Shown: positions 10,116-62,143 of the stretch, in pieces
Numbering within the stretch: position 1 is the first letter of the stretch
Layout: every line of letters begins with the position of its first letter
From: Cytospora piceicola
Taxonomy: Eukaryota; Ascomycota; Sordariomycetes; Diaporthales; Cytosporaceae
NCBI GenBank assembly: GCA_023375675.1
Contig: JALQBC010000043.1
Coordinates: 186,001-250,000 of the forward strand
Reading direction: 5' to 3'
Length of the DNA: 64,000 nt
Notes under the pieces: generated by a model
The model's input: only the letters and a program-made list of their open reading frames with translations
Told to the model about the DNA's origin: nothing
Database searches by the model: none
Translations under genes and position numbers: made by a program

Positions 10116-13100
10116 TCACCACTGAGTCTTCCAGCAATCCACCATCTTCCCCACTAAACCACTCTGAATCACATCGAAACCACCCCTTAGTGACTGGCTT
10201 TCCGACTCTGCTTTGCTAGTGACAAATACAAGACCCTTTCTAGCAGGCCTATCATTGTCGTACTTCTCCGTAAAGAATTCCAGAAGTTTGATAGTAGGGT
10301 TGACCTCAGGGTCCGGGTCAGACTTGCGGAGCAGATCCACCCACTCGCGCTGCGGGACCGTCTTGAAGTCAAGACCTGCCTCCTTGAGAGCTGGAAGAAG
10401 GTCCTGACTCCAGTGAAACAACTTGCTGTTCTGGACGTTGTAGACCGCCGAGTTGCCCGGGTCTATGTCGCCAGTCTTGCCTACTCCAGATAACTCCACT
10501 ACTGCCCTGGCTATAATATCGACTGGCATCCATGAGGGTGTCTGCGGTCGTGTCAGTACATAGGTTGGCGAGGATTGAAGCAACGATGGGCTTACTTCAT
10601 CAAGTGTCGGTAATGCTCCCAGTGTTCTCACACTCTGGATCATCAACGGGATAGCTTCTGTTGTGTTCCACATGCCATGACGGGAATCTCCAACAATTTG
10701 GCCAATACGTAAGACAGAAGCGGTAATTCCTGTAAACTCACCAGCGGCCTTGACCACATGTTCTGTGACCAGTTTGGACCGAGCGTATCCCATCTTCTGC
10801 GCATGGGAAAGGTCCTCAATATGACACTCCTCAATGGTTGCGGGCAACGGCGTCCCGGCGGCGGCTGCTATGGACGAGCAGAAATAGAATCGTGCCGGAT
10901 GCACAGTACTGGTTTTCAAACACAGATTGATGAGGTTGTGGGCGCCTCTGATGTGTTGAGACTCGAAGCTGCGGACGCCAAGGTTAAAGTTGACCGCCCA
11001 GGCCGAGTGGATGACAACCGTGAGACTCTGCAGAATTCTCTCCATTATGTCTTGATCAAGCCCCAGGGAAGCTTTACCCAAGTCCGAGGGTAAGAATGAG
11101 ACTCTGGACAGTTCTTCATCGTTCAATAGTGCAATACGCTTTGCCTCCAGCGTTGAGAGGACCCTTGTCTTGGCCGCCTCTCGTGATTTGGCTCGCACGA
11201 GGCAGAACACATGTTTCACTGGGCTCTCTCTCAGGAGCTGTGCCAGTATGTGCACCCCGAGAGTTCCAGTTGCGCCGGTCAACAACTACAAAGGGCGTTA
11301 GTGAGATATATAGGAGTGGTCGATTGGGACCTCAACTTACCACAGAATCGCCATCTGGTGTGATGTGGCCAGGCGCTCTGACATCAAACTTGGAGTATTT
11401 CTCAATCAACTGAGCCATTTCGGATATCTCATCATCCTCAACCTCCACTGATCCAGTCCTCAGAGATATAAGATGCTTAGCAAGTCTTTCCACGTTGGGG
11501 TATTCGAATATGACATTCGACCCAACAGGGCTACCACCCACGTCAATCTCTCGAGTAATCTGGGCCCTCGCTGTTATCGCCTGACGACTATCAACGCCGG
11601 CCTCGAAGAAATCTGTTGTCTGTTCCAGCTCTGGTATGCCCATCTTGTTTCGGAACAGGTCCAGGAGGTATAGCAGCAAGTCGTCATACTCGAGGGCACG
11701 AAGCACAGCTTGAGGTCTTGCGAAGCGGTCATAGGTATCATTGATCTCCTGTGCAAACTGCCTGTAAAATGCGGCCCGAATGACAGTACCCTTGTCCGTC
11801 CTTGGATATTCTGTTCCGGGGGACAGGACTTCGATCATCTCGAGGGAGATGCGTCCGAACTCTTCAGCCCTCGAGTTGGCCAGCTCAATGTTTGGCAGCA
11901 ACGCTTTGAGGATCTCATCTCTTGAGAGCGACGCTGCTTTCTCACTTGCGACGACCATCAACCCCGGAACGGTTCTGTCCACACCAAATACCACAGCTTC
12001 TTGCACCAGGTCGTGCTGTCTGATAGTGTGCTCGTATGGGATCGGCAATACCTTCTCTCCATTAATTAGGGTTACCCTGTCATCAAGGCGGCCTAGATAC
12101 CTCCAGGCATCGGGGATGGTCGGATGGGGCGTGAAGGTATCCCTGGTATAGTATGACCCGGGAGGATCGTCGGAGTTCGATGTCGTCTTAGATGGAAGGC
12201 CATCAGTTATCATGCACTCGAATGTGTCGGCGCCCCGTGGGATCATCATGATGTATTTCTGTGTCGCAGGGAACGGCCTCATATAATTCCATGCCATGTC
12301 CCCCGTATCCCGAAATGATGTCATGAGCTGTCCCGTTTCCGTACTGGATATGTATGTGGGGTCAGAGGGTGTATTAGGATAAAGGTCTCTGGACTGAGGA
12401 CTTACGTTCCGTACTGTCCCACCAAGTAGACTCCAGCTTCAGTCAGCCGATCCCCGAGGTCATCTGGACAGCTGCTTCCCCCGTACATGACGAGTTTCAG
12501 CTTCCTGAGTTCCTCTATCCCACCTTCAGTCTCCGCCATGAGCTTCAACGCGTACGGGACGCAGTGGAGGCTCTCGGCCTGGGTCGCTCTCAGAGCGTCC
12601 ACCAGCGTGCTCCCAGCCAAGGGCAGATTCCCGTTATACATCGAGATCTTCTTTCCCGCGATCAAAGCGCGAAAGGTGACGGATATGCCGTGGTTGTGGT
12701 ACAGCGGCAGGGTCAAGAACGCCCTGTAGGGAATACCACTGGAGTAGTTCGCGATACAGGCAGAATGAGTTTGGAAGATTGGCTTTGGCAACCCGGTAGA
12801 TCCTGATGAGTGGATGATCTTCTAAGAGGTAAGTGAATGAAATGTGGATACTCTAAAGTGGAAAACTCACGAAAGACAGTTGCTGAGAGGCGTGAGGAGG
12901 CCGCACATAGGGGAATCGAGGCCCAGATGGCTGCTCGAGTTCATACTCTTCCTTGACGACAATGTTGAACAATGACAGCGAATACTGTTCCTGGACCTCG
13001 TCTGCGATGGCCTTCAAATTTGTTCCGGAGACAAGTTTTCGACAGTTAGTCAAGCGGAGCAAATTCACGTATGCCGCTGTGGAAAGTCTGGTGGAAAGAA

Positions 13101-13998: not shown

Positions 13999-16465
13999 AT
14001 GCCAAGAGAAAGTTCAGGGCAGCTTCATCGGGCGACAGAAATGGCCCACCATGCCCCGTCTGGAATGCCATCGCAGCAACCACAGCGGAGGAATCGCCGG
14101 AAAAGGACAAAGGAGAGAGTTAGGGTCACCCGAGCCTGTGACCAATGCAAGCGGCAAGTACATTTCCCAGCTCTTTAATCAATCAAAGAGATCAGGCAAT
14201 TGTACTACATTCTCTCCCTGTTTCCTCGAGTGGGGCTTGGAGGAATCTTAGAGGCCCAGACCGTAGTGCAAAAGCCCCTCTAATCACCTGGGCATGTCCA
14301 CGGGTTGTGGTTATCATGTTCTTGAATATTTCCACAAGATACCCCTGTTCTTTGTAGCTAACTTTCAAGAGCAGACAAAAGATTCGTTGCACCGGCAAGC
14401 TGCCATGTGAGGTATGCGTAAGAAAGGGCATCCGTTGCTCGTATGATACCTTGTATGCCAGAGGCCGTGCTCCGTCCATCATAATGGACGATAATACTGG
14501 CTCAACAGTGTCTACAGAAGGCAGTCACACCAGGAGGCCATCCTTGGAAAGCCCTGGGCGACTGAGTCTCATAGTCGATGGGATTTCACCCAGTGCCTCA
14601 CCTGAACCTTCTCAGACGGACCTCCAGGGACATTATGTCGGTCCAGCATCAGGAGCCTCATTCCTGATCCGGGCACAGAAAAGGGTCTTTGAGACATTGA
14701 AACTTCCTCAGACCTCATCGATCTTTACATTTGGCGACGCACCACTCCCGGACGTGGACACCTCGCTTTTCTTGTTGCCACCAAAAGAAGAAACAAAGCA
14801 ACTGTTGAACAAATACTTCGACTTTGCAGTTCCAACACACCGATACCTGCACAGGCCCACTGTGGAAACATGGTTTGAAGAGCTCTATGCTACGTCTGGA
14901 ACGATGGGCGGTACTGATGAAGCACAAGCGAAGGTTGCTCTACTTTTCATGGTGTTTGCCCAAGCCAGTCTTTATATGCCGGCCTCCGTCTCCTGCAGCG
15001 CAGTCATATCCGACATGAGTTCTCGATACTTCCTTGTTGCAGAGAAGCACCTGCAGAAGGAACGGGGGTGTGTCCGTCTTGCCAGTATACAGGCTAGGCT
15101 TGCCCAATGTTTCTACTTGCTTTCGCGGTCTCGCATCAACCACTGCTGGAGCCTGTTTGGAACAACAGCACACCTGGCCATGGCTATTGGCTTGAATAGA
15201 GGGACGAGAATGGAAGCCCCAACCACCAGCGGGAAAATTGAAACGGAGTGTCGTCGAAGAGTCTTCTGGTGCGCCTACACCCTTGACAAATACCTCGCCG
15301 CCTCACTTGGAAGGCCACGCACTTTCCGCGAAGAGGACATTGATCAACAATTACCATCATGCGTCGACGATCCGTACCTTTGTTCGATCGGATTACCAAC
15401 ACAACTGGACCAGGGCCAGCCCGTGATGGTTGCAGCGGTAGCGCATATCAAGCTTGCTCGGATCCTTGACCAGATCCTGGGAGATTTGTATCCGATCAAG
15501 CCTATAACCATGTCATCGCGCCTGGATCTCACCATGAAGTGCTCCCAAAGGCTAAGACAATGGCGCAAGGAGCTAGCAGACCTATTGGACACCAGCAAGA
15601 TTACAACGGCCTTACTCCTCCCAATCTATCAACGCCAGCGGAATGTATTGAACGCAGCATATTGGCATGCCATACTCCTTACATACAGACCATTATTGTT
15701 GAGAAAGCTTGGAAATAATCGATCTGGAAGCGGCCTACCAAGGGAAAATATTCCCGGGGTCGAAGAGGGCATCGAGGAATGCCTACAAGCCGCCCTGAAT
15801 ATATGTGGACTGGTCAACCAGCTTATCGATGCCGAAATGATGTTCGAGGCCTTTTGGGTGAGTTTTAATCTTGTTCTGAAGGTACTGCTTATTGGTCGAC
15901 AGGTTGGTGCTAACACATTCCTCAGTTCACTTCGTATTACGCATTCTGTGCTGTCGTAGTGCTTTACGTATATACCATCCAGCAGCAGGATGTCCCAAAT
16001 ATCCAATTCCACCATGACTATTTATCAGCGGCAGTTCAGTGCCAGACTCAGTTGTCCACAATCGCCGAGATTGGCTCGTTGACAGAGAGATACTGTCTGG
16101 TCTTAGAAGAACTTCGAAAGGAAGCAGTAAAAGGGTCAAAACACCCAAAAACGGATGTCTTTGCCGAGGCTTCGACCAAATATCCTTCGCGGAAAGGCGA
16201 GCTCACACAACCCAATGAACATGCGGTAGACAACAGTGCCACTATGCAGCCCGACGTCAACACGGGAGATATGACCGATATCACCAGTTTCGAAATCACA
16301 CCAGGTAACTTGGTCTACGAGATGTCAGGGTGGGGAGCGTTTGACTCTATGGTAAGTTACCTCGTCACAATCAAAGGAGTTGCCGTGGGGGAGCTGACTT
16401 GGTTCAAGGTCACATCTGGATTTGGAAACATCGAAGATCTGCTTGGTAACGAATCATTCTTCTGA
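13999..16465 (+). CDS. Zn2Cys6 transcription factor, probable pathway regulator
   Basis: Nuclear fungal-specific DNA-binding regulator. Exons 13999-14153, 14375-15857, 15926-16351 and 16409-16465 give 706 residues. A very basic N-terminus (QRRNRRKRTK) leads into the zinc cluster, with C-x2-C-x6-C in the first half and a second C-x2-C-type half after LPC. A fungal_trans middle domain spans about 190-500 (WFEELY, RRRVFWCAYTLDKYLAASLGRPR, DDIDQQLP-like). The cluster spans intron 1. Only a GC-AG splice (donor GCAAGT at 14154, acceptor 14374, GCTAAC branch site) keeps the required lysine and the six-residue Cys spacing. The last intron (57 nt) is in frame and could be retained. An alternative ATG lies at 13852. 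Target genes are inferred from the divergent A-T-R neighbour. Confidence 0.87.
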
Positions 16466-17201
16466 GGCAACATTGAAACATGGGCGTCTCTTAAGACCCT
16501 CAGGGTACAGAATAATTTACAAGACATACACCATAGCATAGATGACGGACCAGTCGCAACTCTATGTATCCTGCATCCTCCATGGTGTGATTAGTCAGGT
16601 TTTGGCCCGAATTGTCGAGGGGTTGGGCGTCGGGGAGCAATGGCCCAGAACAGGTGAGGTCGAGGCGTAATAGAAGTGTAACAGTTGTTCATGGTGTATC
16701 TATTGGGGGCGGGGGGGGGCCCTTGTTGGGCCTCCAGCTGTAACCTCCTGAACCCGGGCGGCACCCCCCCTTCCCTTGGAGGCAACAGTCCAATTACGAG
16801 GCTAGACGAGCTCTTGTGTTACAGCTTCATGGATACTTTTGTAGTTTCTGGTCCGGCTTCTGCTTACATCTTCTGCCGTGGCGTTCTTACGCAGTTTCAC
16901 TGTGCCACAGAAACATCTTAGTCATTGCTTACCAGTTTAAGCTCATCGGAGACCAAAGCAGGCATGGGTCCTTGCAGTCATTCTGATTATTGATGGCTTA
17001 CTCGTCACGTTCTGTACATGTAGTTGTAGCTAAATGAACGCTCTCTACCCCGCTTGCATCACGTTTTTCTTGCCACTCTTACCTCTCATGCGAATCAGAC
17101 ACATTGCACTTCGTATATCTACGATCCTACGATCAGCATTCTTGTGCTCTCTCTATTGAATATACCGACTTTTTCGACCTAGTGAATGTATTGTGGGCAA
17201 G
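16466..17201. other. Intergenic, no gene seen
   Basis: No coding signal on either strand. Contains a GGGGGCGGGGGGGGG tract at 16705-16719. The last 100 bp before the next gene are T/C-rich, like a fungal leader. Confidence 0.45.
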
Positions 17202-20200
17202 ATGAAGTCTGAAGGCACTGAAGTGAAGTGCTTGAGCACCGAGGCGCACGAGCCGCAGGACGTTTTGTTGCACTATCTAGGCTGTTTAGACTTTCGGGAG
17301 CGAGAACAATATTTTACTATACTCGACGAAGACCAGAGACTTGTGGTTGACCAAGAGCTCCGTCGTAATCAACGCCTCCGTGCGTCGATTCGCGAAGACG
17401 ACCAAGACGCGTTCCTGAGTGGGCGCCTTACTGGAAGTATCGAAAGATGGCGACAGTCACCTCTATACAACCTGGGAATGGTAACGGTGAGAAAGCAGAG
17501 GAATACCAGGGGGCTTGTGAGCGGCCATTCGCAACGAGACGTGAGTGCAGGATATGATCAGGACGACATACAAGCCACAAAATCTATGCATCATAACCTA
17601 TATGCGCATTTCGATGCATACGTCACGTTGGATTTACACAATCCCCAGACAGGACTGGATACGAATGAGCAGCACGCTGTGCAAATCTTCAAGATTGACT
17701 CCCTCGCCGAGTTGTTGGAAGGGAACGAAAGTCCTCTGGAAACCAAGCATGTTGAACGGGAGGGCCAGAGGGGAACTCAGCCAAATCCAGGAGCGAGGGA
17801 ACGGAGAGAATTGAAAGAGACACAGCTGCGAGCACTAGAAACGAGAAAGAGGGTGCTAGAAGACGAGCATCCCGATACGCTAAGCAGTATAAGTGATCTA
17901 GCAGCAACATACTGGAAACAAGGACGATCAGTCGACGCGGCAGATCTACAAGAGCAAGTACTGGCAACGAGAAAGACGGTGCTAGACGACGAGCATCCCG
18001 ATACGCTAAGGAGTATGAGTGATCTAGCAGCAACATACTGGAAGCAAGGACGATTAGTCGACGCGGCAAAGCTACAAGAGCAAGTAGTAGCAACGAGAAA
18101 GACAATCCTAGAAAATGGGCATCCCGATATACTAAGCAGTATAAGTGACCTAGCAGTAATATACCGGGAACAAGGAAAATTAGTCGACGTGGAAAGGCTA
18201 CAACTGTATATACTAGAAACGAGAAAGAGGTTGCTAGGAGACGAGCATCCTAATACGCTAAGCAGTGTAAAGCACCTAGCAGCAACGTACCCCAAACAAG
18301 GCCAATGGAAGAAGGCGGAAGAGCTACAACTGCGAGCAGGTAAATCCTGGCAAGGCCACATGCCGAACATGCATGATATCCAATTGCCGGCAAACAGCAT
18401 TGCTGTAAGTCTCCAACTTTTAGCATGGGCTTTGGTCTCATCTGGCGGTTTTGCTAACATGCAACAGTGGGTTAAGGTAATTCCTCATGATCAACGACTG
18501 GGACTGTACACCACTGGTACTGATACTCATATGCTTTAGAAAGCCATTTCACGTTACTTTGGTGACAATGGTACTGAATCGACCACGAGCATACCACAGG
18601 ACATCTTGATTGCACCACAGAGTGGCAGTGGTTCTCAAAAACCGCGGGAGTGCTATGATTTTCCATTGTCTTTTTGCGACTCATTTTCGACCGGTACGTT
18701 TATCAATGGCAGAGTAATTCCCGATAATTACTAAAGAAGGTTCAGATCCCGAGGATAGCCTCGCACACCGCAACATTGTGCTTTTTGTGAGCCACGACAT
18801 TCGCGTCTCAAAAACCTCGAGCGTAGCACTAACCGTGTCAAAAGCATCCAATCGTAAAGCTGGAATCGGAAGGATCACAAGAAGAGGCTGAACAAGCCCT
18901 CAGAAAAGGCCCCAGCTACAATTCAGAGGACAAGAAAGGGTTGTCTCACAAGAATACGTCGTGGTACAATTTGCTGAAATCAATTCAAGAACCCAGGAAG
19001 ATTCGGGGAACCCATTTGTACAAGTGGGAAGACAATGGCAGACTAATCGCAGGACATCCTCTTGGACAGGTCCTTTTCGATGCGGCAATGCTCTTCAAGG
19101 GGGTTACAACTTACGCAGACAGGAAATTGGGCAACAGAAAACTTTTGTCCGACCCGTCGCCTTTGCTCCGCCAGATACTGGATCAAGCAGACAATCCAGA
19201 CAGACACAGAAACCTCTACCAAGGTGCGAATTCATCCACTAGTGGCTTCCGCAAAGAAGATAAGCACGTGTTTGCAGACCATTTATGGATATGGATCCTC
19301 GACGAGAAGACGATCATCACATGCCTTCCAAAGGGCTTCCTAGGTTGGCGTGAACTCCTCGAAACGATTCGAGAAAGAACAAGTCAACCCAACCCTGGCA
19401 GTAACCAAGCACGAACAGTGTTTGATTTGACCTTGGCCGTTCTTCAAGAGGTTTCCGTAAGCCTGCTAATCCCAAGCGAAATTGAGATATAAGTAGCTAA
19501 CAACGTCTCCAGAGGAATCATTCTCGGGTCATCCAGAGTTTCGACCGAAGAATTATCGACATTGTGCGTAATTCACCTTGAGAACGAACCAACTAATAAT
19601 GCTTGATTGCTGATTCGAACAGACAAACAGGAAAGTGTCGCATTTCCAGAAAATACGTGCTTGGGCGGACTCATGTTCACTAAGTGAATCGGAGACTTCG
19701 CAGTATTTCCAACCAATACTCTCCCTTGCACGTGAGATGGAAGATACTGTCGGAAGGCTTGATCTCATCATCAGGATAGCCAATCAACAGAGATACATCT
19801 TGATGCGCCTGGAAGAGACTGTGGAGCAAATTATCACATCCACATATACTCCTCTAGAGGACACCAAACAAAAGGATTTGAGTCGTTTCGAGGACTTGTC
19901 GAATGAACTTCTTCAGGGACTGGATAGTCATATCGCAGAACTTCGAAGGCTGCGCTGGTCTACCCAATCTACGAGACATATACCATCCAGTATTGATTCA
20001 CATGGACGCGATAGCCCTGGATTGACAGATCCACACATGGGCCCAAGGTCCATTGAAGAGGCTGTAGCGCTGCGAGATCCAGCCGCGCTGGGAAGATTGC
20101 TTGAAGAAGACTCCACCGTCTCAGAGCCATACTCTTGGGTTCGAGAGCTGCAGGAGATTGGGTTCTCTCTAGGGGAAATTGCAGATCTCGTCATGGAGGA

Positions 20201-22466
20201 CGCGAATGATTCCCCATGGATTTTCTTCGACCCTATGGAGCCTCTTTCGGCTGCTTCCGTTGTGTCAACCAAATCTCACCTACCGGAATGCGTGCATCAA
20301 TTCAAAGACTCATCATCAACCCAAGTCTCTCACCCAGCCCTTGAACCTTCTGAGGACACGACGCGAGTCGTTGAAGAACTGTGTGGACTTGGCGGCATCA
20401 TACCAGTTTCAAAGGACCGATCACAATGGACAGGGATGGTGTTTTTCGCGGAAAATAATGCAGGAGGCCGAATATGTTACTCCAGTTGCTATGGGGACTT
20501 GCATCTCGTCACTCATCGACTTCTCAATGTTCTGGACTCTCTCTGCAATGCACTTACCCACATGCAGTCGAGAGAGCTGTGCTGCAGCTCCTTCACCATC
20601 ATTCGGTCAAGACAACAACAGATTGGGCGTAATGCAACGAATCATCCTGTGGTTGACCTTTGCCGGATAGAATTCAGCCTTGTCGTACAGCTACGTTTGG
20701 AACTCAAGGAGTTCTCGAGCTCCGGAACCCTGCAAAGCAATGCAGCGAAGGCCGTCTTACAGATTATAAGCCCTCTTTCCAATGCAGGCTGGGTCAGCGA
20801 GGAGGATCCAGACTCGGACTCAGCCAAGATAGGTCTATTACAAGTCTCTGCCTTGGCTGTTCAGGTGCTTTGTGTTGGTCTTCTGTCATACTGTCAAGCT
20901 CACCTTGGCCCACTACAGCCATTTTTCCTGGATACTCAGATTGGACGGCTCATTCTTGACGGAATACCAGACTTTAACTATCCGACTACTCGCATAGAGG
21001 CCAAATTAGTACCTCTTGCGTGCATGGGAGATATGCTTCGGTCGCCGGTCTTAGCTTTCAGCATTCAAGATCCTTCGTCAGCTCCAAGAAGCAGGGTAGA
21101 TTTGCCGCTACACTATCTCGGAGCTACTGCGGCGGACCTATTGGACACCTGGGGCCCGGGACAGTTGATATTTCGAAGTGGGTCCAAGAGGGAGGTTTAT
21201 GCTATTCAAATAGGTGGTGGAGTTATCAGGAGGTCAAACAGCGAGCCTGACCGGTTCCACTGGAGCCAGCGTGCAAACCTAGAGGAAATTTCCCAAAGCC
21301 GCATCGATCTGGAGTCTAGGATTCTTATTGGAAGTTCAACACAAGGCTTGGTGGAAGTCAACGACAAATGTTTGTTTGACAAGGATCAATTCTGGCTGTC
21401 CTCTTACCAGTTCTTAGCGCCTTTGGGCCCAGAAGCGGCCTCCTGGCACTGCGACGAAATCGCGATTGGCCTTCAAGGTGGCCAATATGTTGTCGCTCAA
21501 GCCAACATGACCTGGCACAAGCGAAAGGGAGTGACGCTTAAGGAACACCGCCTAAGCCAGCCAGTTGAGACGCTGGTCCCATTCCTTGAGGAGCTTTGGG
21601 CTGTACAGGTCAGTTGCTGCACCGGGATAGCACGAAGAGTCGCACTTCGAGATATGATTGCCGACTTTCTACCCGTCTACGCTTCTGTGTGTCTCATATC
21701 CCAGGAAGACAAAGATAGATGGCAGAGACTTATCACATCATACAGCCTCGAGCCATCCTTCCGGGCATCAAGCGTCACCTTTAGGGACTGGCTCTCCAAT
21801 TTACCGCAAGACCTGCACCACCATGTTATCAGGCTTATTCAGAATATTTTCCGCATGATTCAACATACCGGACTCGACCAAGAAGAAAACAATATGCTAA
21901 TCGCGTGGCCGGACGAGCGAGCACTGTTCCGGTGCTTCAGAGTCGAGTGCAAGGCTGAATCAGCATGGGCAGGCGTACTCGGCGACTCGCAGGATTGTGC
22001 CTCATTCATCTACTACACACCCAAGTGCTTTGAGACCGGGACTATCAAGTGCAGCGGAAACGGCCCTAAGCACTCCTGGCGGAACGCCATACGACTTCTT
22101 GAGACTGAAGTCATCGCCCACGATTCCTGCCAGGCAAACATTGCGAGTTTGGACCCTAAAAAGTCATATTTCTTCCAGAAGATGGACGACCGCATCTTTT
22201 TCAAGGTTGAGCGCTCTGACGCAGCAGCGTTCGCGTCATTGGTTTCGCTCAACAGTGTTCCGCTCAAGATTCAGCGGAGAATCATGGTGAAATTCATGAG
22301 TGACCGTGGGCGACAACTTGCCAAGTTACGTGAGAAGAGCCACGCGGCTGAAACAATTGCGGAGCGAGTAGCAATACTGGCACCGAGACCGTCACTTAAC
22401 TTGATTGGGCCATCAAGTCCGGGCAGGTCCGTAGGCGGACTGAAGTTGCAGAATGTAACGTCTTGA
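17202..22466 (+). CDS. Large TPR-repeat protein with C-terminal conserved fungal module (CorA-like/NLR-associated type)
   Basis: Unknown-function, probably cytosolic protein. Seven exons (17202-18404, 18468-18476, 18540-18693, 18740-18786, 18845-19456, 19513-19563, 19623-22466) keep a single frame and give 1639 residues. Residues about 205-380 are four 42-residue TPR repeats of the kinesin-light-chain type (HPDTL...LAATYWKQGR). The rest resembles a long fungal family seen next to HET/NLR genes: CYDFPLSFCDSFSTG, HLWIWILDEKTIITCLPK, WVRELQEIGFSLGEIADLVMEDANDSPW-like block, then AIGLQGGQYVVAQANMTWHKR near the C-terminus. I see no nucleotide-binding domain, catalytic motif or clear membrane segment. 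The join around 18405-18539, with a 9-nt exon (Trp-Val-Lys), is the least certain; if wrong, a TPR protein and a separate C-terminal gene lie side by side. Confidence 0.62.
17862..18338 (+). repeat. Four in-frame 126-bp TPR-coding tandem repeats
   Basis: The GAYGAGCATCCYRATA-type landmark recurs at 17862, 17988, 18114 and 18240, exactly 126 bp apart. Units 1 and 2 are about 90% identical by eye; unit 4 diverges at its end. Such high internal similarity allows unit gain and loss by recombination. Confidence 0.9.
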
Positions 22467-22710: not shown

Positions 22711-23817
22711 TCAAAGATTGCTCTCTGACTTCTCCACATCAGCCAGATACAACTCCCTTAGCTTCTCCCACTCCCCATCTGGCAGCTTTCCCTTCAAGGG
22801 AAGCCGGCCTCCCTCCAACGTGCCCAAGCCCGTGACGCGGAAGACAGCTTCCTTGATACCCACGATGCCCGTTTTCCCGATGTACTCCTCTGCCTTGCTG
22901 ACCACGTACTGCAGCCTCTGCACCTCGGCAAGTGCCTCCTGCTCGATGGGCCTCTTCTCTGCGAGGCTCATGAGCCTGGCCACGGTCTTGGGGTAGATGG
23001 CTGCCAGCCCGTCGATGACTCCCGCCGCCCCAAAGAAGACGATTGGCCCCAGCTGCTGGCCAAAACCACTGTAGACCCTGAATTTGTTATGGTCTATTGC
23101 CGGGTCTAGGGAGACCTGGACGTGGTGAGACACGTTACCGTGTGACCTGGTTCATATTAGCATAGTGAATACCTTATGCAGGTGAGAGGGTTTCGCTTAC
23201 ATCTTGCATCCGACGATATTTGGGTGTTGGGCTAGAGCCGTGTATGTCTCAGGGGCAACCAAGACATTGTTGGTTACGCCAGGATAGTTATATCTGCAAG
23301 CCACATCAGCACCACTGATATTCAAGCTCCCGGCTCGGGTATTCTTTATGTTTGAAACTTACATCAAGATGGGAATGGGACTGTTGTCCGCAATGATGGT
23401 GTACCACTCCTTGATATTAGCCTGGGAACCTGCCGGCCCAAAGTAGCCAGGGACGAGCACGAGACCCCATTGCGCACCGGCATTGGCGTAGTCCTGCAGC
23501 CACTCCAATGTCTCGTCTATGCCGTTGGTGAGAACACCAGCCATGATGGGGTAGTCCGGGAAGCCGGCATCGTCGAGCCCTTTCCTGCAGCCGGCGACAA
23601 GGTCGTAGCGTTCCTGGCGGTTCAGGTGTACGGCCTCCCCCGTGGAGCCGAGGAGGACAAGCCCACGGATGCCGTTCTTGGCCAAGAAGATGGAGTGCTT
23701 GGTCTGTGTCTCGACGTCGACCTTTGGCTGCAGTCCTGAGGATGCGGAGGCCGGGTGAAGGAAGGTGGGGACAGGGACGAATACACCCGTGGGAGGGCTG
23801 GTTACAGAGGCTGACAT
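22711..23817 (-). CDS. 2-keto-3-deoxy-sugar-acid aldolase, DHDPS/NAL superfamily (LGA1/gaaC-like)
   Basis: Class I aldolase that should split a 2-keto-3-deoxy-hexonate into pyruvate and glyceraldehyde. Exons 23817-23363, 23293-23201 and 23146-22711 give 327 residues, normal for the family. Motifs: LLGSTGEAVHL (carboxylate-binding loop), ILIYNYPGVTNN (catalytic Tyr) and VGCKMSHGN with the Schiff-base Lys. The Lys region fits fungal L-threo-3-deoxy-hexulosonate aldolases (LGA1/gaaC) better than lysine-pathway DHDPS, which fungi lack. It is divergent from an aldo-keto reductase (510-bp shared promoter) and near a D-galactonate dehydratase, so 2-keto-3-deoxy-D-galactonate is a likely substrate here; the substrate stereochemistry is inferred from context only. 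Confidence 0.9.
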
Positions 23818-26412: not shown

Positions 26413-27663
26413 ATGGGGAAAATAGCTACCATGGAGTACTTCCGCGTGCCGCCACGCTGGCTCTTCGTCAAGATCATGGACGATAAGGGAAACGTTGGTT
26501 GGGGCGAGGCTTCGCTGGAGGGCCACACGCAGGCCGTCGAGGGTTGCCTGGACGCATGGTTCGAACGTATCACTGGCTTCGAAGCCGATGACATCGAGCA
26601 CATATGGCAGTTGTCGTGGCGCACCAGCTTTTACAGAGGGGGTCCGGTCTTCATGAGCGCGCTGGCTGGCATTGACATCGCCCTCTGGGACTTGAAGGGT
26701 TCGGGGATCCATACATCTGCCTTCCGAATTGGGTTTCACTGACACTTCGGCAGGTCGAAAGCTTGGAGTTCCTATCTACCAACTGCTTGGGGGGAAGGTC
26801 CGTGACAAGCTGAAGGTGTATGCGTGGATAGGGGGTAACAGGCCCAGCAACGTCGCAGACGAAGCGTGAGTCTAGCTTGATATCACGGCGAAGTCAGACT
26901 AACACACGCGTGAAGAAAGGCACGAAAGGCACAAGGCTTCAGCTGCATCAAGATGAATGCGACTGACGACATGGCATGGCTAGACTCACCCAGTCTCCTA
27001 GACTCATGTGTCGACCGTGTCAAGGCAGTCAAGGCACTCGACATGGACGCTGGCGTCGACTTCCACGGACGGCTGCACAAGCCCATGGCCAAGCAGCTTG
27101 TCAAACTGCTCGAGCCGTACCGACCCCTATTCGTCGAGGAGCCGCTCCTGTCCGAGCATCTCGCGGCCATCAAGTCACTGGCAGAACAGACCAGCATCCC
27201 GATAGCCCTCGGCGAGCGTCTCCACAGCAGGTGGGACGTCAAGCCCTTTCTCGAGGCCGGCTGCGTGGATATCTTGCAGCCTGACATCTCACACGTCGGT
27301 GGCATATCCGAGTTGAGGCGCATCGCCGCCATGGCTGAGGCATACGACGTGGCTCTCGCCCCGCACTGCCCGCTGGGGCCCATAGCCCTGGCGGCGAACT
27401 GTCAGGTGGACTGCTCCAGCCCGAACTTTGCCATCCAGGAGATGAGCTTGGGGATACACTACAATGCGGGTGGGCCGGATCTTACCAGCTACACCAAGAA
27501 CCCAGAGGTCTGGAATGTCACGGATGGCTATATCGATATTCTCAATGGTCCTGGACTGGGCATTGAGATCGACGAGGAACAAGTAAGAGCCTTGTCGAAG
27601 GATGCTAAGCCGTGGGTCTCTCCTGGTTTTATTGGCCCTGGCGGGGAAGTCCGTGAGTGGTAA
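26413..27663 (+). CDS. D-galactonate dehydratase, enolase superfamily (DgoD type)
   Basis: Dehydrates D-galactonate to 2-keto-3-deoxy-D-galactonate with Mg2+. Exons 26413-26698, 26754-26865 and 26916-27663 give 381 residues, almost exactly the length of bacterial DgoD. From start to end the match to DgoD is strong: PPRWLFVKI at the N-terminus, CIKMNA (Lys), VDFHGR (Asp ligand), FVEEPLL (Glu ligand), GERLHSRWD (Glu ligand), [10 protein letters not shown], and [14 protein letters not shown] with the catalytic His. The chain ends in a REW tail like the bacterial enzyme. It is not the fungal L-galactonate dehydratase (gaaB/LGD1), whose N-terminus differs. Its aldolase and glyceraldehyde-reductase neighbours supply the following steps. 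Confidence 0.92.
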
Positions 27664-31512: not shown

Positions 31513-32867
31513 TTATTCCAAATGTGCGCCCTTCCTAAATTCCAGTAGACGGCTCTCATACTTGACCTGGAACTCCTCACCCAGCTTCAACAACCGAATA
31601 GCATTCCCAGCCAACACGCCGGCCCTCTCATCCCAGCTCAAGAACGTATCCAAGTTCCTCCCTCCCTTCCCGTTCCCGATCAGCATCTCGCCAGCAGTGG
31701 GAACCTCTCCGAGTGGGAAAGGATAGTCACTGCCCAGCACCATGTTCGCGGACGGGATCTTCCGCAGGACGTAGTCGAGAAGATCAGGGTCGTGCACCAG
31801 GCTGTCGATCCAGATGTTGTTCCCGCTCGCGAGGTGCTCTGTTGGCGTGATACCCCCGGCGGAATGTGCGACGAGGTCAGGCCGGCAGTCGAAGCCGTGC
31901 TGGATGCGGCCCAATAGTGCCGGAAATGCACCTCCGGCGTGGGCGAAGCAGATACGGAGGTTGGGGTGGCGGAGGAAGACGCCGCCAGAGGTGAGATTCT
32001 GCATAGCCAGGGCTGTCTCGCAGGGCCTTGTTTATATGTCAGCATTTATGCCCGCAGTCAGAAATTGGGTGGGTTTCCGGTGTTTACTTACATGCCGACC
32101 AGCCAGCTGCCCCAGTACTTGCCCCATCTCGCCTCGTTCTCCTGCTTCCAGGAGTAGCCCAGGGGGTGCACAAAGACTGCCATATCCAACTCCTCGCATG
32201 CTCTCCAGAAGCTCTCTAGCCTCTCGTCGTCCAGATCCATCTCCCCATCTGCCAACGGGGCTGACGTCCCGATCTGAACACCCACCAGCCCCAGCTCCTT
32301 CGACCTCCTCAGCTCTTTGACGGCCTCGTCGACGTCCTGGAGCGGGACAGTGGCCAGTCCTACAAACCGTTCCGGAAACTCCGTCACAATGTCTGCGATA
32401 TGCTCGTTCAGCGACCTCGCCAGCACGACTGCAGGCTCGACGGGGGCGTCGTAGCAGAAGAGCAGGGGCACGGTCGACAGGACCTGCACGTCCACCCCGG
32501 CGGCATCCATCTCCTCGATCCTGGTGGCCGCGTCATAGCAGTTTGGTTTTACCCGTCGGAAGAACGAGCCCCCATTGTACATATCGATGTCGCCCGCGCC
32601 GTCCTCGCTGGGCTTGAAGCTGGGCCAGGAGTAGGGCTTCGTCGTGGACGTGGGGACGGACGCGAGGTCGGGAAGCGAGGACGGCATTATATGTGTGTGA
32701 AGGTCTATGCGGTAGAGGGATTCACCGGTCCTTTGTGCATGGTGGATGTGGGATTGTGTTGGTGGTGAACCGCTGCTGAGGCTGGTTAGGGGTGTCGATG
32801 ATCCAGACCCGGAAGAGCCCGAACAGCACTCGCAGCTGCTAGCCTCTGTGAGGATCCCAGGAGCCAT
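31513..32867 (-). CDS. 2-amino-3-carboxymuconate-6-semialdehyde decarboxylase (amidohydrolase superfamily)
   Basis: Zinc-dependent decarboxylase that turns ACMS, the ring-opened product of 3-hydroxyanthranilate, into 2-aminomuconate 6-semialdehyde. Exons 32867-32092 and 32026-31513 give 429 residues. After a roughly 55-residue Ser/Gly/Cys-rich extension, the TIM barrel begins with [14 protein letters not shown] (metal-binding HxH). Later metal and active-site residues lie in [14 protein letters not shown] and [10 protein letters not shown] (Asp). [14 protein letters not shown] and [12 protein letters not shown] fit the ACMSD subfamily. The neighbouring dioxygenase makes its substrate and the neighbouring dehydrogenase uses its product. 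It is divergent from the dioxygenase across a 697-bp promoter. Other amidohydrolase-2 decarboxylases are possible on motif alone; context makes ACMSD likely. Confidence 0.92.
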
Positions 32868-33153
32868 GTTGTTATGATTCAAGATATAAGATATTAATTG
32901 AGAGTGCGTTAGGATCTATGGGATATTCCCATGTGTTCTACACTTGAAGATAGTAATTGTTGTCAGGGGGGAGATGCTCGTAGGTTGACCACTTGAGCAA
33001 CAGCCGATTTAAGAATTGGATAAAACAACAACAGAACAAAAGAAACACTTGCCACCAGATTAACAGGGCCTTAGATACCATCAAAATGTACATCATTGCC
33101 CTCCATGGCATGGCCTTGTGGCCGGTGTGATGTTTGATACCGCCGTCTTTCCG

Positions 33154-33250
33154 CTTCCGTGTTTTCGGATGGAAGCGCGGAAGTTCAGGTTCTGGCTCGA
33201 GTCGCGGAAGCTGTGTGCCAGAGCTCGTTGAGCTGCCAGGAATTCGGAAG
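33154..33250. promoter_or_regulatory. Cluster of four CGGAAG motifs in the ACMSD/dioxygenase divergent promoter
   Basis: CGGAAG or its complement occurs at 33154-33159, 33178-33183, 33205-33210 and 33245-33250. The same hexamer clusters in the other divergent promoter of this gene group (36061-36164). A shared regulator site is inferred, not known. Confidence 0.45.
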
Positions 33251-33564
33251 ACTCACAGCGGCATAAGCGCTGACGGGTTAGGGGCGATACCACTAAACTC
33301 AGGTCCCGCAGACCCTGAATTATCGTGCCACAGCGGGACAAACGGCGATAAAGTCATTACCTGGGACAACGTGTACCGACGACTGCCGCTCGATGAAACT
33401 GAAATCTCACCTATTCATATGTTGCAAGCATTTCTCACCTGTGTAAATCTTATTCATATACTCAGTCATCCAACAAGAAAAGTCGCATCCTTGTCTCAAA
33501 TCATACAAACTTCAACCGTTGCCATCCACAAACACCCCTCACAAAACCTCAAGTACCACCAAAA

Positions 33565-34128
33565 ATGGCAGGCGACGCACCAGCCCCCAAGGCCCTCCCA
33601 CCACCACTGGCCTTCGCCTCCTGGCTAGGCCAGAACCAAAACCTCCTCCAGCCGCCCGTCAACAACTACTGCCTCTTCAGCGGCGCGGACTTTGTCCTCA
33701 TGGTCGTCGGCGGCCCCAACACGCGCAACGACTACCACGTGAACGAGACGGAGGAGTGGTTCTACCAGCTGAAGGGCGCAATGTGCCTCAAGGTCGTGGA
33801 GAAGGACGAGGATGGCGGCGAGTACTTCAAGGACGTCGAGATCAAGGAGGGCGAGATGTTCCTGCTGCCGGGCAACACGCCGCACAACCCTGTGCGGTTC
33901 GCGGACACGATCGGGCTTGTGATGGAGCGCACCAGGCCCGAGGGGAGTCTGGACCGGTTGAGGTGGTACTGCAAGAAGGGCGGGCACGAGAGGCCGACGG
34001 TGATCAGGGAGGAGACGTTTCACTGTACGGATTTGGGGACGCAGTTGAAGCCGTTGATTAACAACTGGAGGGAAAATGAGAGCTTGAGGAAATGTTCTGT
34101 CTGTGGGCAGACGGAGGATCCCCAATAG
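33565..34128 (+). CDS. 3-hydroxyanthranilate 3,4-dioxygenase
   Basis: Cupin-fold Fe(II) dioxygenase that opens 3-hydroxyanthranilate to ACMS. One exon, 187 residues, the usual length. Family motifs are clear: NNYCLFSGADFVLMVVGGPN; the iron ligands His and Glu in DYHVNETEEWFYQ and His in LPGNTPHNPVRFADT; and GLVMERTRPEG. Near the C-terminus a RWYC Cys, FHCTDLGTQLKP and a KCSVCG pair suggest the extra metal site seen in yeast/bacterial forms. In fungi this enzyme (Bna1) normally feeds NAD synthesis; here it is grouped with three downstream degradation enzymes, so a catabolic copy is likely. It is convergent with the dehydrogenase gene (148 bp between stop codons). Confidence 0.95.
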   Translation: MAGDAPAPKALPPPLAFASWLGQNQNLLQPPVNNYCLFSGADFVLMVVGGPNTRNDYHVNETEEWFYQLKGAMCLKVVEKDEDGGEYFKDVEIKEGEMFLLPGNTPHNPVRFADTIGLVMERTRPEGSLDRLRWYCKKGGHERPTVIREETFHCTDLGTQLKPLINNWRENESLRKCSVCGQTEDPQ

Positions 34129-34276
34129 GGGAGGGAGGTGAGACACCATGGGATAGTGAGGAGTGATACCTAGGAATAACATAGAATCAAACACTTATTG
34201 AATTCGAGACAAGTCTCATAAATTTGATAATCAACCCAAATCTCGCTTCAATGGTTCCATTCATCTTATATATCTC

Positions 34277-35818
34277 TCATACATCTGCCAGATGTATCGT
34301 CCTAACGACAGTGAACATGTCCCTGGAGTACTCTCCCCCCTCCCTTCCAATCCCAGAGTTCTTCATCCCACCAAACGGCGTGCCCAACTCCCTGACCAGC
34401 CAGCAATTAACCCACACCAATCCCGCCTGGAGCTGCTCGCCAACCCTCCTCATCCGTCTGCCGTCTGTAGTCAACAGAACCGCCGCAAGCCCGTACTCGC
34501 TCGCATTGGCCTTCTGTATAGCGTCATCCTCGTCCTCGAAGGGCACAATCGTGACCACCGGGCCGAATATCTCATCCCGCAGCAACTCCGAATCGGCGGG
34601 GACGTTCGTCAAGACGGTTGGCTTGATCCAGTAGCCCTTCTCCTCGCCGGCTTGTACCTCAGGCGGGACCTCACCCGTCTCGAATGTCATATTCTGCCTC
34701 TGGGCTGTCTCAAGGTAGCCCCTGATCTTGGTGTAGTGCTGTTGACTGACCACAGCGCCAACTGTCTCGCCAACGCGGTACGTTTTGTTAACGTGCTCGG
34801 TGAACTCAGCGACAAAGTCTTTATACACGCTCTTCTCGACATAGATCCTCGATCCACACAGACATATCTCGCCCTGGTTCTCAAAAGAAGCCATCGCCGC
34901 CGTCCGAATGGTCTTCTCCCTTTCGGCGGCCATGGAATCGGCAAACACCAGCGTCGGGTTCTTGCCGCCCAGCTCCAGGCTGACATGCTTGTAGATCTGG
35001 TGCGCGGTCGCCCTCCGGATGGCGATGCCCGTCGCGGTGCCGCCCGTGAAGCTCACGCCGTGGACGCCCGGGTGCGCCACCAGGGCCGAGCCGGTGGTGG
35101 CGCCGTCGCCGAAGAGGATGTTGACGACGCCGGGCGGCAGCGCCGCCCTCTGGAACGCGGACGCGAGCAGGAACGCGCTCACGCTGGTCACCTCGCTCGG
35201 CTTGGCCACGGCCGTGCAGCCGAAGGCCAGGCAGGGCGCGAGCTTCCAGGTGAGCAGGTACAGCGGCATGTTCCAGGGGGAGACGAGGGCGAAGACGCCC
35301 GCGGGGCTGCGGTGCTCGTACGTGAGCGCCGCGCCGTCCAGCACGCGCGCCGCGGCCGACTCGTGCAGGATCAAGGTCGAGAAGTAGTCAAAGTTGGCGA
35401 CGGCCCGGTCGACCTCCACCCGCGCCCGGGCGAGCGTCTTGCCCTGGTCGATGCTCTCCCACACCGCGAACAGCTCGCGGTTCTCGGCCACGATCTCGCT
35501 GACGCGCCGGAGGTACCGCGAGCGCTCGGCCCGTGGCGTCTTGCTCCATGCTGGGAAGGCGGCCTTGGCTGCCTTGATGGCGGTGTCGACCTCGTCGGCC
35601 GACGCGCAGGGGATCCTTGCGATGACTCTGCCTGATTTTGGCTCGAACGAGTCTATGTGTTTTGATGACTCGGTGGTGGAGAATTTGTTGTCGGTGAAGT
35701 GCTGCAGTGTGATGGGCTGGCCCTGGAGCTGTTTGAGGAGAGTGGTGGCCTTCTCGAGGGTGTTGGCGGCCCAGAGCTCCTCCGAGATGGTCCCTTGGGG
35801 TTGCTGCGGTGTGGCCAT
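34277..35818 (-). CDS. 2-aminomuconate 6-semialdehyde dehydrogenase (ALDH superfamily)
   Basis: NAD-dependent aldehyde dehydrogenase that should oxidise 2-aminomuconate semialdehyde to 2-aminomuconate. One exon, 513 residues. Motifs: PWNMPLYLLTWKLAPCLAFG, FTGGTATG (cofactor), LELGGKNP with the general-base Glu, and NQGEICLCGSR with the nucleophile Cys, a signature shared with the ALDH8A1/AMSDH group. The C-terminus has GMKNSGIGREGG. It is a general ALDH by fold; the specific call rests on the EICLCGSR block and on its neighbours. It is divergent from the deaminase (552 bp apart). The coding strand is very GC-rich, which creates a long spurious antisense frame. Confidence 0.92.
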   Translation of the reverse strand: MATPQQPQGTISEELWAANTLEKATTLLKQLQGQPITLQHFTDNKFSTTESSKHIDSFEPKSGRVIARIPCASADEVDTAIKAAKAAFPAWSKTPRAERSRYLRRVSEIVAENRELFAVWESIDQGKTLARARVEVDRAVANFDYFSTLILHESAAARVLDGAALTYEHRSPAGVFALVSPWNMPLYLLTWKLAPCLAFGCTAVAKPSEVTSVSAFLLASAFQRAALPPGVVNILFGDGATTGSALVAHPGVHGVSFTGGTATGIAIRRATAHQIYKHVSLELGGKNPTLVFADSMAAEREKTIRTAAMASFENQGEICLCGSRIYVEKSVYKDFVAEFTEHVNKTYRVGETVGAVVSQQHYTKIRGYLETAQRQNMTFETGEVPPEVQAGEEKGYWIKPTVLTNVPADSELLRDEIFGPVVTIVPFEDEDDAIQKANASEYGLAAVLLTTDGRRMRRVGEQLQAGLVWVNCWLVRELGTPFGGMKNSGIGREGGEYSRDMFTVVRTIHLADV

Positions 35819-36060
35819 GATGGATAGATATCCTAAGTACTTAGGAGGCAGTCTTGAGAGGAGACTTGACGATGTGCTTCCTGACTAGCCACTGGATGAG
35901 AATTAAGTTGGAGGATGGGGGGAAAGAAGCTTGTGGCCTAGGCGATGCGTATATCAAGACTGCTGCACTGGCAACATGAACGAAATCCACATAGTTCTTG
36001 GCCAGCGACCAACATTGCTGGCGATATCTCGAAACCTACTTACTTAGTATTTAAGTTCCG

Positions 36061-36164
36061 CTTCCGCGTGCACCAGCCCGCTGTGGAGCCGAAGGGTGTC
36101 CAAAAGGGGTAATTAAAAGGCGCTTGCAGCCAATCGGAAGCAAAACTCAACTGCGGAGCGGAAG
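36061..36164. promoter_or_regulatory. CGGAAG motifs in the dehydrogenase/deaminase divergent promoter
   Basis: CGGAAG or its complement at 36061-36066 (within GTTCCGCTTCCGCG), 36135-36140 and 36159-36164, matching the cluster at 33154-33250. Confidence 0.4.
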
Positions 36165-36370
36165 ACGGATGCTCGGCACATGATGCACGATACTCTCGTT
36201 CGGTAAGGATCGCAAGCTCTAGCCCGTGTCCGCAATAATAATTATAGCCTCAATGAGTTTGTGTGCCGATGTCATTAACGACAAGAGGATCTTCAATCAC
36301 ACACCTCCCACCATTACCCGTCTATAGCCACATCAACTTACCAAACACACCCGCCAGTCACTCACTCATC

Positions 36371-36823
36371 ATGACCTCGCCCAACGGAACCGGCTACTTC
36401 CTCCCGGCGGAGCGCGCCCAGGGCCTCGCCAACTACCCCCACGCGCGCACGGCGCCGTCAACAAGCCGCACCATCTTCGTGTCGGGGACGTCCTCCCGGC
36501 GCGGCGACGGCACCTACGAGGGCTGCGAGACCCTCCCGGACGGCACGCACCGGCTCGACTGCGGCGCGCAGACGGCCGCGGTCCTGAGGAACATCGGGGG
36601 CATCATCAGGGGCGCGACGGGGGGCCGGGGCGGGCTGGAGAGCGTGGTGGACGCGACCGTGTTCCTGACGGACATGAGGGACTACGCGGCCATGAACGCC
36701 GAGTGGAACAGGTGCTGGCCTGAGAAGACGGGGGCCCCGGCCCGGACGTGTGTTCAGGTTGTGGCGCTGCCGAATGAGAGGTTGAATGTGGAGATCAAGT
36801 GTCAGGCTTTGGTCAGCGAGTGA
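36371..36823 (+). CDS. 2-aminomuconate deaminase, RidA/YjgF fold
   Basis: Small RidA-fold protein that should release ammonia from 2-aminomuconate, giving 4-oxalocrotonate. One exon, 150 residues from MTSPNGTGYF. Family features: TIFVSGTSSRR, DCGAQTAAVLRNIGGI, LESVVDATVFLTDMRDYAAMN, and CVQVVALPNERLNVEIKC with the conserved Arg that binds the substrate carboxylate. The roughly 30-residue longer N-terminal half compared with plain RidA matches the deaminase branch in bacterial nitrobenzoate/tryptophan pathways. An upstream in-frame ATG at 36263 would add a Pro/Ser-rich leader without family similarity. The specific role is inferred from the three upstream pathway genes beside it. Confidence 0.88.
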   Translation: MTSPNGTGYFLPAERAQGLANYPHARTAPSTSRTIFVSGTSSRRGDGTYEGCETLPDGTHRLDCGAQTAAVLRNIGGIIRGATGGRGGLESVVDATVFLTDMRDYAAMNAEWNRCWPEKTGAPARTCVQVVALPNERLNVEIKCQALVSE

Positions 36824-60925: not shown

Positions 60926-62143
60926 ATGGTCTCCAGACTGGCATCCGCCGCGGCTGTGGTGCTCACGGCATCTTCCCTTGCCAGTGCTCAGACCTACAGT
61001 TCCTGCAACCCTATGGAGAAGACTGGTAAGAGATAATTCCCTCCTCATTGGCTTTTCATAAGAAACCTGCCCCTCTAACATCACACCTCAGACTGCGCCG
61101 CCGACCCCGCTGTAGGAACGACAAAGACAATCGACTTCACTAAGGGCGCGAATGACTTCTTCACCATTGCAGAGGGAACCACTCTGACCTACGACGATAA
61201 ACTCGGAGCCATCTTCACTATCGAAAAGGAAACCGAAGCTCCCACCATCACCTCTACCGGCTACATCTTCTTCGGAAGGGTCGATGTGACCGTGCGAGCA
61301 TCCGAGGGCCAGGGTGTTGTCACCTCCATGGTCCTGCAGTCGGACGACCTGGACGAGATCGACTGGGAGTGGCTTGGAGGCGACGACACCGAGGTGCAGA
61401 CCAACTACTTCGGCAAGGGCAACACAACCACCTACGACCGTGGTGGCTTCTCCGGTGTCGGCAGCCCCGTCGAGGACTTCCACGTTTACACCATCGACTG
61501 GACCGCCGAGGAGCTGAACTGGATCATCGACGGCACTACCGTCAGAACCCTCAAGTACGCCGATGCCAACGGTGGAAAGTCCTACCCTCAGACTCCCATG
61601 CAGATCAAGCTCGGCACCTGGGTTGCGGGTAGAAAGGATGCCGCCATTGGAACCGTCGAGTGGGCTGGAGGCTACACCGACTTCACCAAGGCTCCATTCA
61701 TGGGATACTACCAGAGCATTACCATCCAGGATTACATGAACGGTGAAACCGGCGCCAAGCAATACGTCTGGGGCGACCAGACCGGCTCCTTCGACAGCAT
61801 CAAGGTCGAGAAGACCGCCAGCAGCAGCACAAGCAGTGTCAAGAGCATTCAGAGTGCTACTTCGGCTGCCACCTCTGCCGCATCTTCCGCATCTTCCGCA
61901 TCTGCCAAGAGCACCGCTTCGACCATGAGCACCGTCACCAGCTCGGGCATCACCCTCGCCACCGGCGTTGCAAGCAGCGGTAAAGACACGACCAGCAGCG
62001 GCTCCAGCCCATCTGGCGCTTCGGCCACGTCGAGCGGCAGCAGCGGCGCATCCACGGCCGCCGTCGCCAGCTCTGGTGGCAGCAAGTCTTCCGTCAGCTT
62101 TGCCTTCCTGGGCGCTGCTTTGTTTGCATTCCTCTCCCTTTAG
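60926..62143 (+). CDS. GPI-anchored cell-wall transglycosylase, GH16 Crh family
   Basis: Predicted chitin-beta-glucan cross-linking transglycosylase acting in the fungal wall. Exons 60926-61025 and 61092-62143 give 383 residues. The signal peptide ends at LASAQ. The GH16 domain has the catalytic DEIDWEWLG (nucleophile and acid/base Glu), VQTNYFGKGNTT, FHVYTIDWT and IKLGTWVAG. A Ser/Ala/Thr-rich stalk follows (about 290-360), and the chain ends in a hydrophobic GPI-attachment signal (FAFLGAALFAFLSL) after a small-residue omega-like site in SSGGSKSS. Cys residues near residues 29 and 34 fit the family's N-terminal disulfide; no CBM18 is present. The intron splits an Asp codon immediately before the second of these Cys. 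Confidence 0.96.

Follow-up and report, generated by a model that had tools for sequence, protein, structure and literature searches.

The window analysed here, a stretch of 64,000 nucleotides from Cytospora piceicola (C40:186001-250000 of the 43.6-Mb assembly, 99 contigs), carries a cluster of four genes predicted to degrade 3-hydroxyanthranilate. The genes encode 3-hydroxyanthranilate 3,4-dioxygenase (HAO), the decarboxylase (ACMSD) of 2-amino-3-carboxymuconate semialdehyde (ACMS), 2-aminomuconate-6-semialdehyde dehydrogenase (AMSDH), and a RidA/YjgF-family protein that is a putative 2-aminomuconate deaminase (AMDA). All four frames are open, and the cluster fills positions 31513-36823 (5.3 kb):

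32867..31513, minus strand: ACMSD, 429 amino acids, with one 65-bp intron at 32091..32027.
32868..33564, no strand: divergent ACMSD-HAO promoter region, with four CGGAAG sites at 33154 (-), 33178 (+), 33205 (+), and 33245 (+).
33565..34128, plus strand: HAO, 187 amino acids, from a fungal group distinct from Bna1.
35818..34277, minus strand: AMSDH, 513 amino acids, intronless in the gene model.
35819..36370, no strand: divergent AMSDH-AMDA promoter region, with three CGGAAG sites at 36061 (-), 36135 (+), and 36159 (+).
36371..36823, plus strand: AMDA, 150 amino acids.

The start codons of ACMSD and HAO are 697 bp apart and those of AMSDH and AMDA are 552 bp apart, both pairs being divergent, and the stop codons of HAO and AMSDH are separated by 148 bp in convergent orientation. 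An intron was found only in the ACMSD gene model. The original prediction, which was made from the letters alone, had located the four genes correctly to the base as judged from the gene models, and its arrangement of two divergent pairs (ACMSD/HAO and AMSDH/AMDA) was borne out. Among the best 120 homologues listed, the closest named ones come from Cytospora mali (Diaporthales; 89% for ACMSD and 91% for HAO).

The identities of the four enzymes were examined with family models, solved structures, and active-site residues. The proteins matched the Pfam families 3-HAO (E-value 3.5e-54), Amidohydro_2 (1.2e-37), Aldedh (1.6e-148), and Ribonuc_L-PSP (3.2e-18), and the closest solved structure was the expected enzyme in all four cases: yeast HAO (1zvf), human ACMSD (2wm1), AMSDH (4u3w), and 2-aminomuconate deaminase (6izh). 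Of the NCBIfam models shown for the four proteins, one passed its cut-off, namely TIGR03037 for HAO (177.7 bits against 145.95); a second HAO model, NF009763, scored 193.4 bits against a cut-off of 220. In HAO (PF06052, 183 bits), nine of the ten positions checked against the Cupriavidus enzyme are kept (R54, H58, E64, H107, R111, E121, and three cysteines), the sole exception being the replacement of C128 with G139. ACMSD (PF04909) scored 251 bits against the human enzyme and at most 181 bits against the solved bacterial ones, and gave no NCBIfam match. It keeps 12 of the 15 human ACMSD positions checked: the counterparts of human H6, H8, R47, and H174 are H57, H59, R104, and H234, and those of H224, R235, R243, and D291 are H288, R299, R307, and D359. 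ACMSD is present as a single strong copy in the genome, the next match being 30% identical.

The residues of AMSDH (PF00171) are more telling, because a control was available in the same genome. The top seven PDB rows for this protein were all named AMSDH. Arg120, Glu268, Cys302, and Arg464 are described as functional residues of the Pseudomonas enzyme, the two arginines binding the substrate (available text of PMC4286809), and they correspond to R138, E282, C319, and R476 in the cluster protein, which keeps all seven positions checked, including both substrate arginines and the catalytic Cys and Glu. In seven paralogous ALDH loci drawn from 27 matches in the genome, the two arginines never occur together; the paralogue L010 has one of them, and in L013 position 138 could not be read and position 476 is Gln. 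For AMDA (PF01042, 66.3 bits), the top PDB match was 6izh (E-value 1.5e-15; runner-up 9.3e-9), with 49 of 125 aligned residues identical, including the SGTSSRR motif and the Arg of the PAR motif; this Arg, for which a catalytic role in the Rid family is given in the available text of PMC4433059, is kept. SGxSSRR is common to the solved deaminase and all 120 AMDA homologues listed, 86 of which have SGTSSRR, and a search for SGTS[SA]RR found the motif at the cluster locus and in none of seven other RidA-family loci (five other genomic places). The four enzyme assignments, which were those of the original prediction, and the biochemical reading drawn from them are well supported at the level of sequence, and they favor the proposed series of four consecutive steps from 3-hydroxyanthranilate to 4-oxalocrotonate.

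The genome carries two HAO genes, the cluster copy and a copy on contig C59. The C59 copy has a YCxxC motif and pairs with yeast Bna1, the NAD-making fungal HAO, at 99/99. The cluster copy, of which the same reaction is expected, does not group with Bna1; its motif is YCxxxxH, and its place is with 14 other Ascomycota homologues (91/75, short of strong support). In this tree of 33 hand-picked rows, which is rooted at the midpoint and contains several long branches, a 97/89 branch separates the cluster HAO from the three bacterial rows, and the branching order of the cluster-HAO group, the Basidiomycota, and the Bna1 pair is not settled. Among the 120 cluster-HAO homologues listed, which were selected by similarity to the cluster protein and are hence biased toward its type, YCxxxxH occurs in 114 and YCxxC in none. 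The second Cys of YCxxC (four-Cys site) is missing in the cluster-type and basidiomycete HAOs, and the motif is kept in the C59 copy, in yeast, and in two of the three bacterial HAO rows. The check for a second dioxygenase suggested along with the original prediction turned up a Bna1-type gene; the proposed degradative and not NAD-making role of the cluster is likewise supported.

Genes that could supply the cluster with its substrate were found elsewhere in the genome. Kynureninase has one match, on C50; IDO-family matches are on C14, C50, and, weaker, C13; and a KMO match is on C28 (37% identity to a yeast query sequence). The kynureninase gene forms a pair with an IDO gene:

C50:135094-138792 (L033), divergent: kynureninase and IDO pair, with 845 bp between the start codons.

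Kynureninase is outside the window, as had been stated, and the match on C50 supplies the gene that the original prediction lacked. Because IDO, KMO, and kynureninase matches are all present, 3-hydroxyanthranilate can plausibly be made from tryptophan. A QPRT gene is on C15, and because this gene and a separate Bna1-type HAO are present, NAD synthesis is likely to have its own dioxygenase.

The cluster genes also appear to stay together in other fungi, a search for which had been proposed with the original prediction. The homologue lists comprised the best 120 proteins, and two genes were taken to be on the same scaffold when their contigs were of equal size, which does not by itself prove adjacency. 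By this measure, ACMSD and AMDA share a scaffold in 19 of the 19 named assemblies common to both lists (two T. terrestris assemblies included), ACMSD and HAO in 8 of 8, and AMDA and HAO in 3 of 3. Proteins lacking an organism name were excluded from these counts, and the HAO list was reduced to its 14 Ascomycota names by removing the Basidiomycota, which do not occur in the best-120 lists of ACMSD or AMDA. Scaffold sizes lie between 28 kb and 10.3 Mb. Locus tags indicate close spacing in Neoarthrinium moseri (002279 for AMDA, 002282 for ACMSD, and 002283 for HAO) and Pestalotiopsis fici (02122 for AMDA and 02126 for ACMSD). The scaffold linkage across assemblies is more than would be expected by chance.

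The enzyme set, the separate Bna1-type gene, and the linkage led us to consider it highly probable that the cluster is a 3-hydroxyanthranilate degradation module of a kind known from Ascomycota, fed from tryptophan and separate from NAD synthesis. In the proposed pathway, tryptophan would be converted to 3-hydroxyanthranilate by the products of the IDO, KMO, and kynureninase genes on other contigs. HAO would then open the ring of 3-hydroxyanthranilate to give ACMS, ACMSD would decarboxylate ACMS ahead of its closure to quinolinate, AMSDH would oxidize the resulting 2-aminomuconate semialdehyde, and the product, 2-aminomuconate, would be deaminated by AMDA to 2-hydroxymuconate/4-oxalocrotonate. 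NAD synthesis would run on the separate Bna1-type HAO and QPRT. We infer each of these reactions and the direction of flux from the genes present, their order and open frames, their homology, and their conserved residues.

The original prediction regarded such a cluster as not well described in fungi, which is contradicted by two papers. Martins et al. (2021) named a cluster of 3HAO, ACMSD, AMSDH, and a putative AMDA and drew it across Ascomycota (available text of PMC7842363, on which the statements about Aspergillus here are based), and FAMeDB (2026), which cites that paper, lists eight central ring-opening intermediates for fungi, one of which is 3-hydroxyanthranilate (available text of PMC13094099). 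PMC7842363 was the only description of the cluster found among the literature matches listed, and no account joining Valsa mali with 3-hydroxyanthranilate was found. The cluster of Martins et al. has the same four genes, a filamentous Ascomycota host, and the same proposed route. As in that cluster, the 3HAO, ACMSD, and AMSDH genes are adjacent in the window, and the active-site residues of these three enzymes are kept in 9 of 10 (HAO), 12 of 15 (ACMSD), and 7 of 7 (AMSDH) positions checked. The two differ in that AMDA is inside the cluster here and outside it in A. terreus, and in the host, which here is a Cytospora (Diaporthales). The Aspergillus neighbors, namely a BVMO, an SDR, and an amino-acid transporter, do not adjoin the cluster here among the 30 open reading frames (ORFs) scanned with introns ignored. 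What the present analysis adds is the Cytospora member in Diaporthales, the two-group HAO picture in one genome, the upstream genes, and the promoter word shared with them.

This promoter word, CGGAAG, is one of 14 words listed when every 6-, 7-, and 8-mer in the two cluster promoters was compared with the remainder of the window. CGGAAG was selected for copy number, being the commonest listed word with four copies in the ACMSD-HAO promoter and three in the AMSDH-AMDA promoter. The words CGCGGAAG, GGCGATA, and CACAGCGG have enrichment ratios above that of CGGAAG and were set aside because of having only three copies each. Among 1000 dinucleotide shuffles, none reached four copies for the ACMSD-HAO promoter and three reached three copies for the AMSDH-AMDA promoter, and no 6-mer attained seven copies in 200 shuffled promoter pairs. 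The kynureninase-IDO promoter (845 bp), tested after the word had been chosen, contains six copies, compared to a shuffle mean of 0.6, with 1 of 1000 shuffles reaching six; the 756 bp before the recognized part of the Bna1-type HAO contain none. The densest 700-bp stretch holds six copies at the cluster and eight at the C50 pair, both stretches reaching into coding sequence, and at most three copies in 33 other loci of the same genome, several of which overlap. A search of the whole 43.6-Mb genome for three copies on one strand, spaced by gaps of 10-40, gave nine matches, and the ACMSD-HAO and kynureninase-IDO promoters account for two of these.

A part of the same analysis speaks for caution about this word. 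CGGAAG ranks last of the 14 words by enrichment ratio (7-fold), and sliding windows of equal size over the whole window, the cluster ones included, reach at least four copies in 17 of 1267 cases and at least three in 28 of 1269. At the KMO locus, the first recognized exon is preceded by only two copies. For the three-copy pattern, the permitted gaps were fixed after the sites had been seen, several of its nine matches are simple repeats, and the backwards control of the pattern gave 80 matches. We presume that CGGAAG is a candidate regulon element, a hypothesis with one out-of-sample test. Because the cluster and kynureninase-IDO promoters share the word, the route is likely to be switched on as one unit, the cluster and the pair being co-regulated through a CGGAAG-type element. 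More broadly, and only tentatively, tryptophan breakdown may be a single regulon spread over two or more contigs, in which the CGGAAG arrays of the three divergent promoters are read by one regulator and are absent from the Bna1-type HAO, so that the catabolic and NAD-making dioxygenases would be kept separate in ancestry as well as in promoter. No account linking CGGAAG to a fungal regulator was found in the literature search made for it, and, as judged by titles, none of the matches listed dealt with two HAO groups or a kynureninase regulator. Elsewhere in the window, a further four CGGAAG copies are grouped at 61751-62575, all inside 700 bp and close to a GH16 ORF (61286-62143).

Several observations count against the degradation module, and four other explanations have to be weighed with them. 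Human ACMSD K41, M178, and C247 are changed in the cluster ACMSD, and AMSDH reaches the cut-off of none of the 25 NCBIfam models shown (41 in all), the highest-ranking one being HpaE. A lower pathway of the bacterial type was sought with two models, those of 4-oxalocrotonate decarboxylase and the aldolase: in a six-frame genome search that ignored introns, and with no control genome passing the cut-offs, there was no match to the decarboxylase, and the best score for the aldolase was 39.7 bits against a cut-off of 286. This result would suit a branch for overflow or detoxification, in which the cluster mainly keeps reactive 3-hydroxyanthranilate and quinolinate low or tunes the split between NAD and disposal, and does not serve growth. 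ACMS that is not taken up by an enzyme turns into quinolinate non-enzymatically (available text of PMC7842363), and the separate Bna1-type HAO and QPRT would fit such a branch too. We nevertheless consider it rather unlikely, as decarboxylation alone should be enough for that purpose and a second HAO, AMSDH, and AMDA would exceed the need. It is improbable that the module degrades another aromatic compound, such as aminophenols, salicylate- or gentisate-derived compounds, or plant phenolics, with 3-hydroxyanthranilate not being the main natural substrate. Cytospora is a bark-canker genus, and plant phenolics should therefore be available to the host. According to the available text of PMC7842363, salicylate medium raised the expression of the A. 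terreus cluster together with that of some upstream genes, a result that also speaks for the degradation module itself, and none of the pathway intermediates was definitely identified there. Against this substrate, HAO and ACMSD retain most of the checked residues of the enzymes for 3-hydroxyanthranilate and ACMS, and CGGAAG is common to the cluster and kynureninase-IDO promoters.

Equally little credence is given to the view that the RidA-type protein is an imine deaminase of general function, present in the cluster by chance, with 2-aminomuconate deaminating by itself. AMDA scored too low to pass any of the three NCBIfam Rid models that it matched, and the available text of PMC7842363 describes the A. 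terreus cluster as lacking the gene and the deamination as possibly non-enzymatic. The top PDB match is nevertheless a 2-aminomuconate deaminase, ahead of RidA chains; the SGTSSRR motif is shared with this structure and with no other RidA-family place in the genome; and AMDA and ACMSD share a scaffold in all 19 named assemblies common to their lists. Transfer of a bacterial nba-type operon to fungi, which had been raised with the original prediction, is very improbable. The bacterial nba-type clusters for 2-nitrobenzoate/tryptophan meta-cleavage have the same four enzyme activities and perform the same four steps, and HAO is near ACMSD in two of three bacterial loci. These three loci came from one genome scan and are too few for a tree; with 6-kb flanks, none of them showed a match to AMSDH or AMDA at E 0.01. 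The nba-type clusters differ from the present one in having an HAO of bacterial lineage where the cluster has one of a fungal group, and the cluster has one spliced gene and, in the genome, neither the decarboxylase match nor an aldolase above the cut-off. A bacterial origin of the cluster HAO is not supported by the 97/89 branch, within the hand-picked rows and midpoint root of that tree, in which the protein stands among fungal rows. Lateral transfer of ACMSD was proposed in 2006, with a putative ACMSD reported in Blastocladiella (available text of PMC1550239), and recent horizontal transfer was suggested for a second Aspergillus cluster resembling those of Metarhizium and Penicillium (available text of PMC7842363). 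The cluster ACMSD is no nearer to the three bacterial relatives (40-43% identity) than to human ACMSD (43%), being about equidistant from both.

A 3-hydroxyanthranilate degradation module remains the reading that we prefer for the cluster, and its animal counterpart offers a further comparison. The kynurenine branch of animals comprises ACMSD and AMSDH, with ALDH8A1 as AMSDH, and the two genes are not known to be clustered in animals. The cluster ACMSD scores higher against the human enzyme than against the solved bacterial enzymes; human ACMSD is itself nearer to the three bacterial relatives (50-57%) than to the cluster protein (43%). The module would extend a little-studied eukaryotic tryptophan-degradation route to a tree-canker fungus, and the HAO group together with the promoter word may serve as a sequence rule for telling a catabolic from an NAD-making dioxygenase. 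Should the shared promoter word prove real, it would give a handle on the regulator and on the steps after 2-aminomuconate, with any further genes that carry such site arrays as candidates.

The surroundings of the cluster were examined in 30 of the 73 ORFs listed outside it, with introns ignored, and no transporter or regulator adjoins it among these. Two ORFs lie nearby:

26953-27663, plus strand: galactonate dehydratase-like ORF, NF010624 at 312.2 bits against a cut-off of 311.
23359-23817, minus strand: DHDPS-family ORF, a few kb from the cluster.

Together they perhaps serve sugar-acid breakdown, and because of this sugar-acid-metabolism look they were dropped as pathway partners. An SDR fragment lies about 13 kb from the cluster. 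A PF04082 fungal-specific transcription factor domain is at 14451-15959 (plus strand), about 16 kb away, with no sign of regulating the cluster. At 17193-22466 (plus strand), a TPR-repeat ORF of 448 amino acids is followed by an open frame of 943 amino acids without a Pfam match, and at 10116-12324 (minus strand) neighboring ORFs hold the pieces of an NRPS-like carboxylate reductase, namely AMP-binding C-terminal, carrier, and NAD_binding_4.

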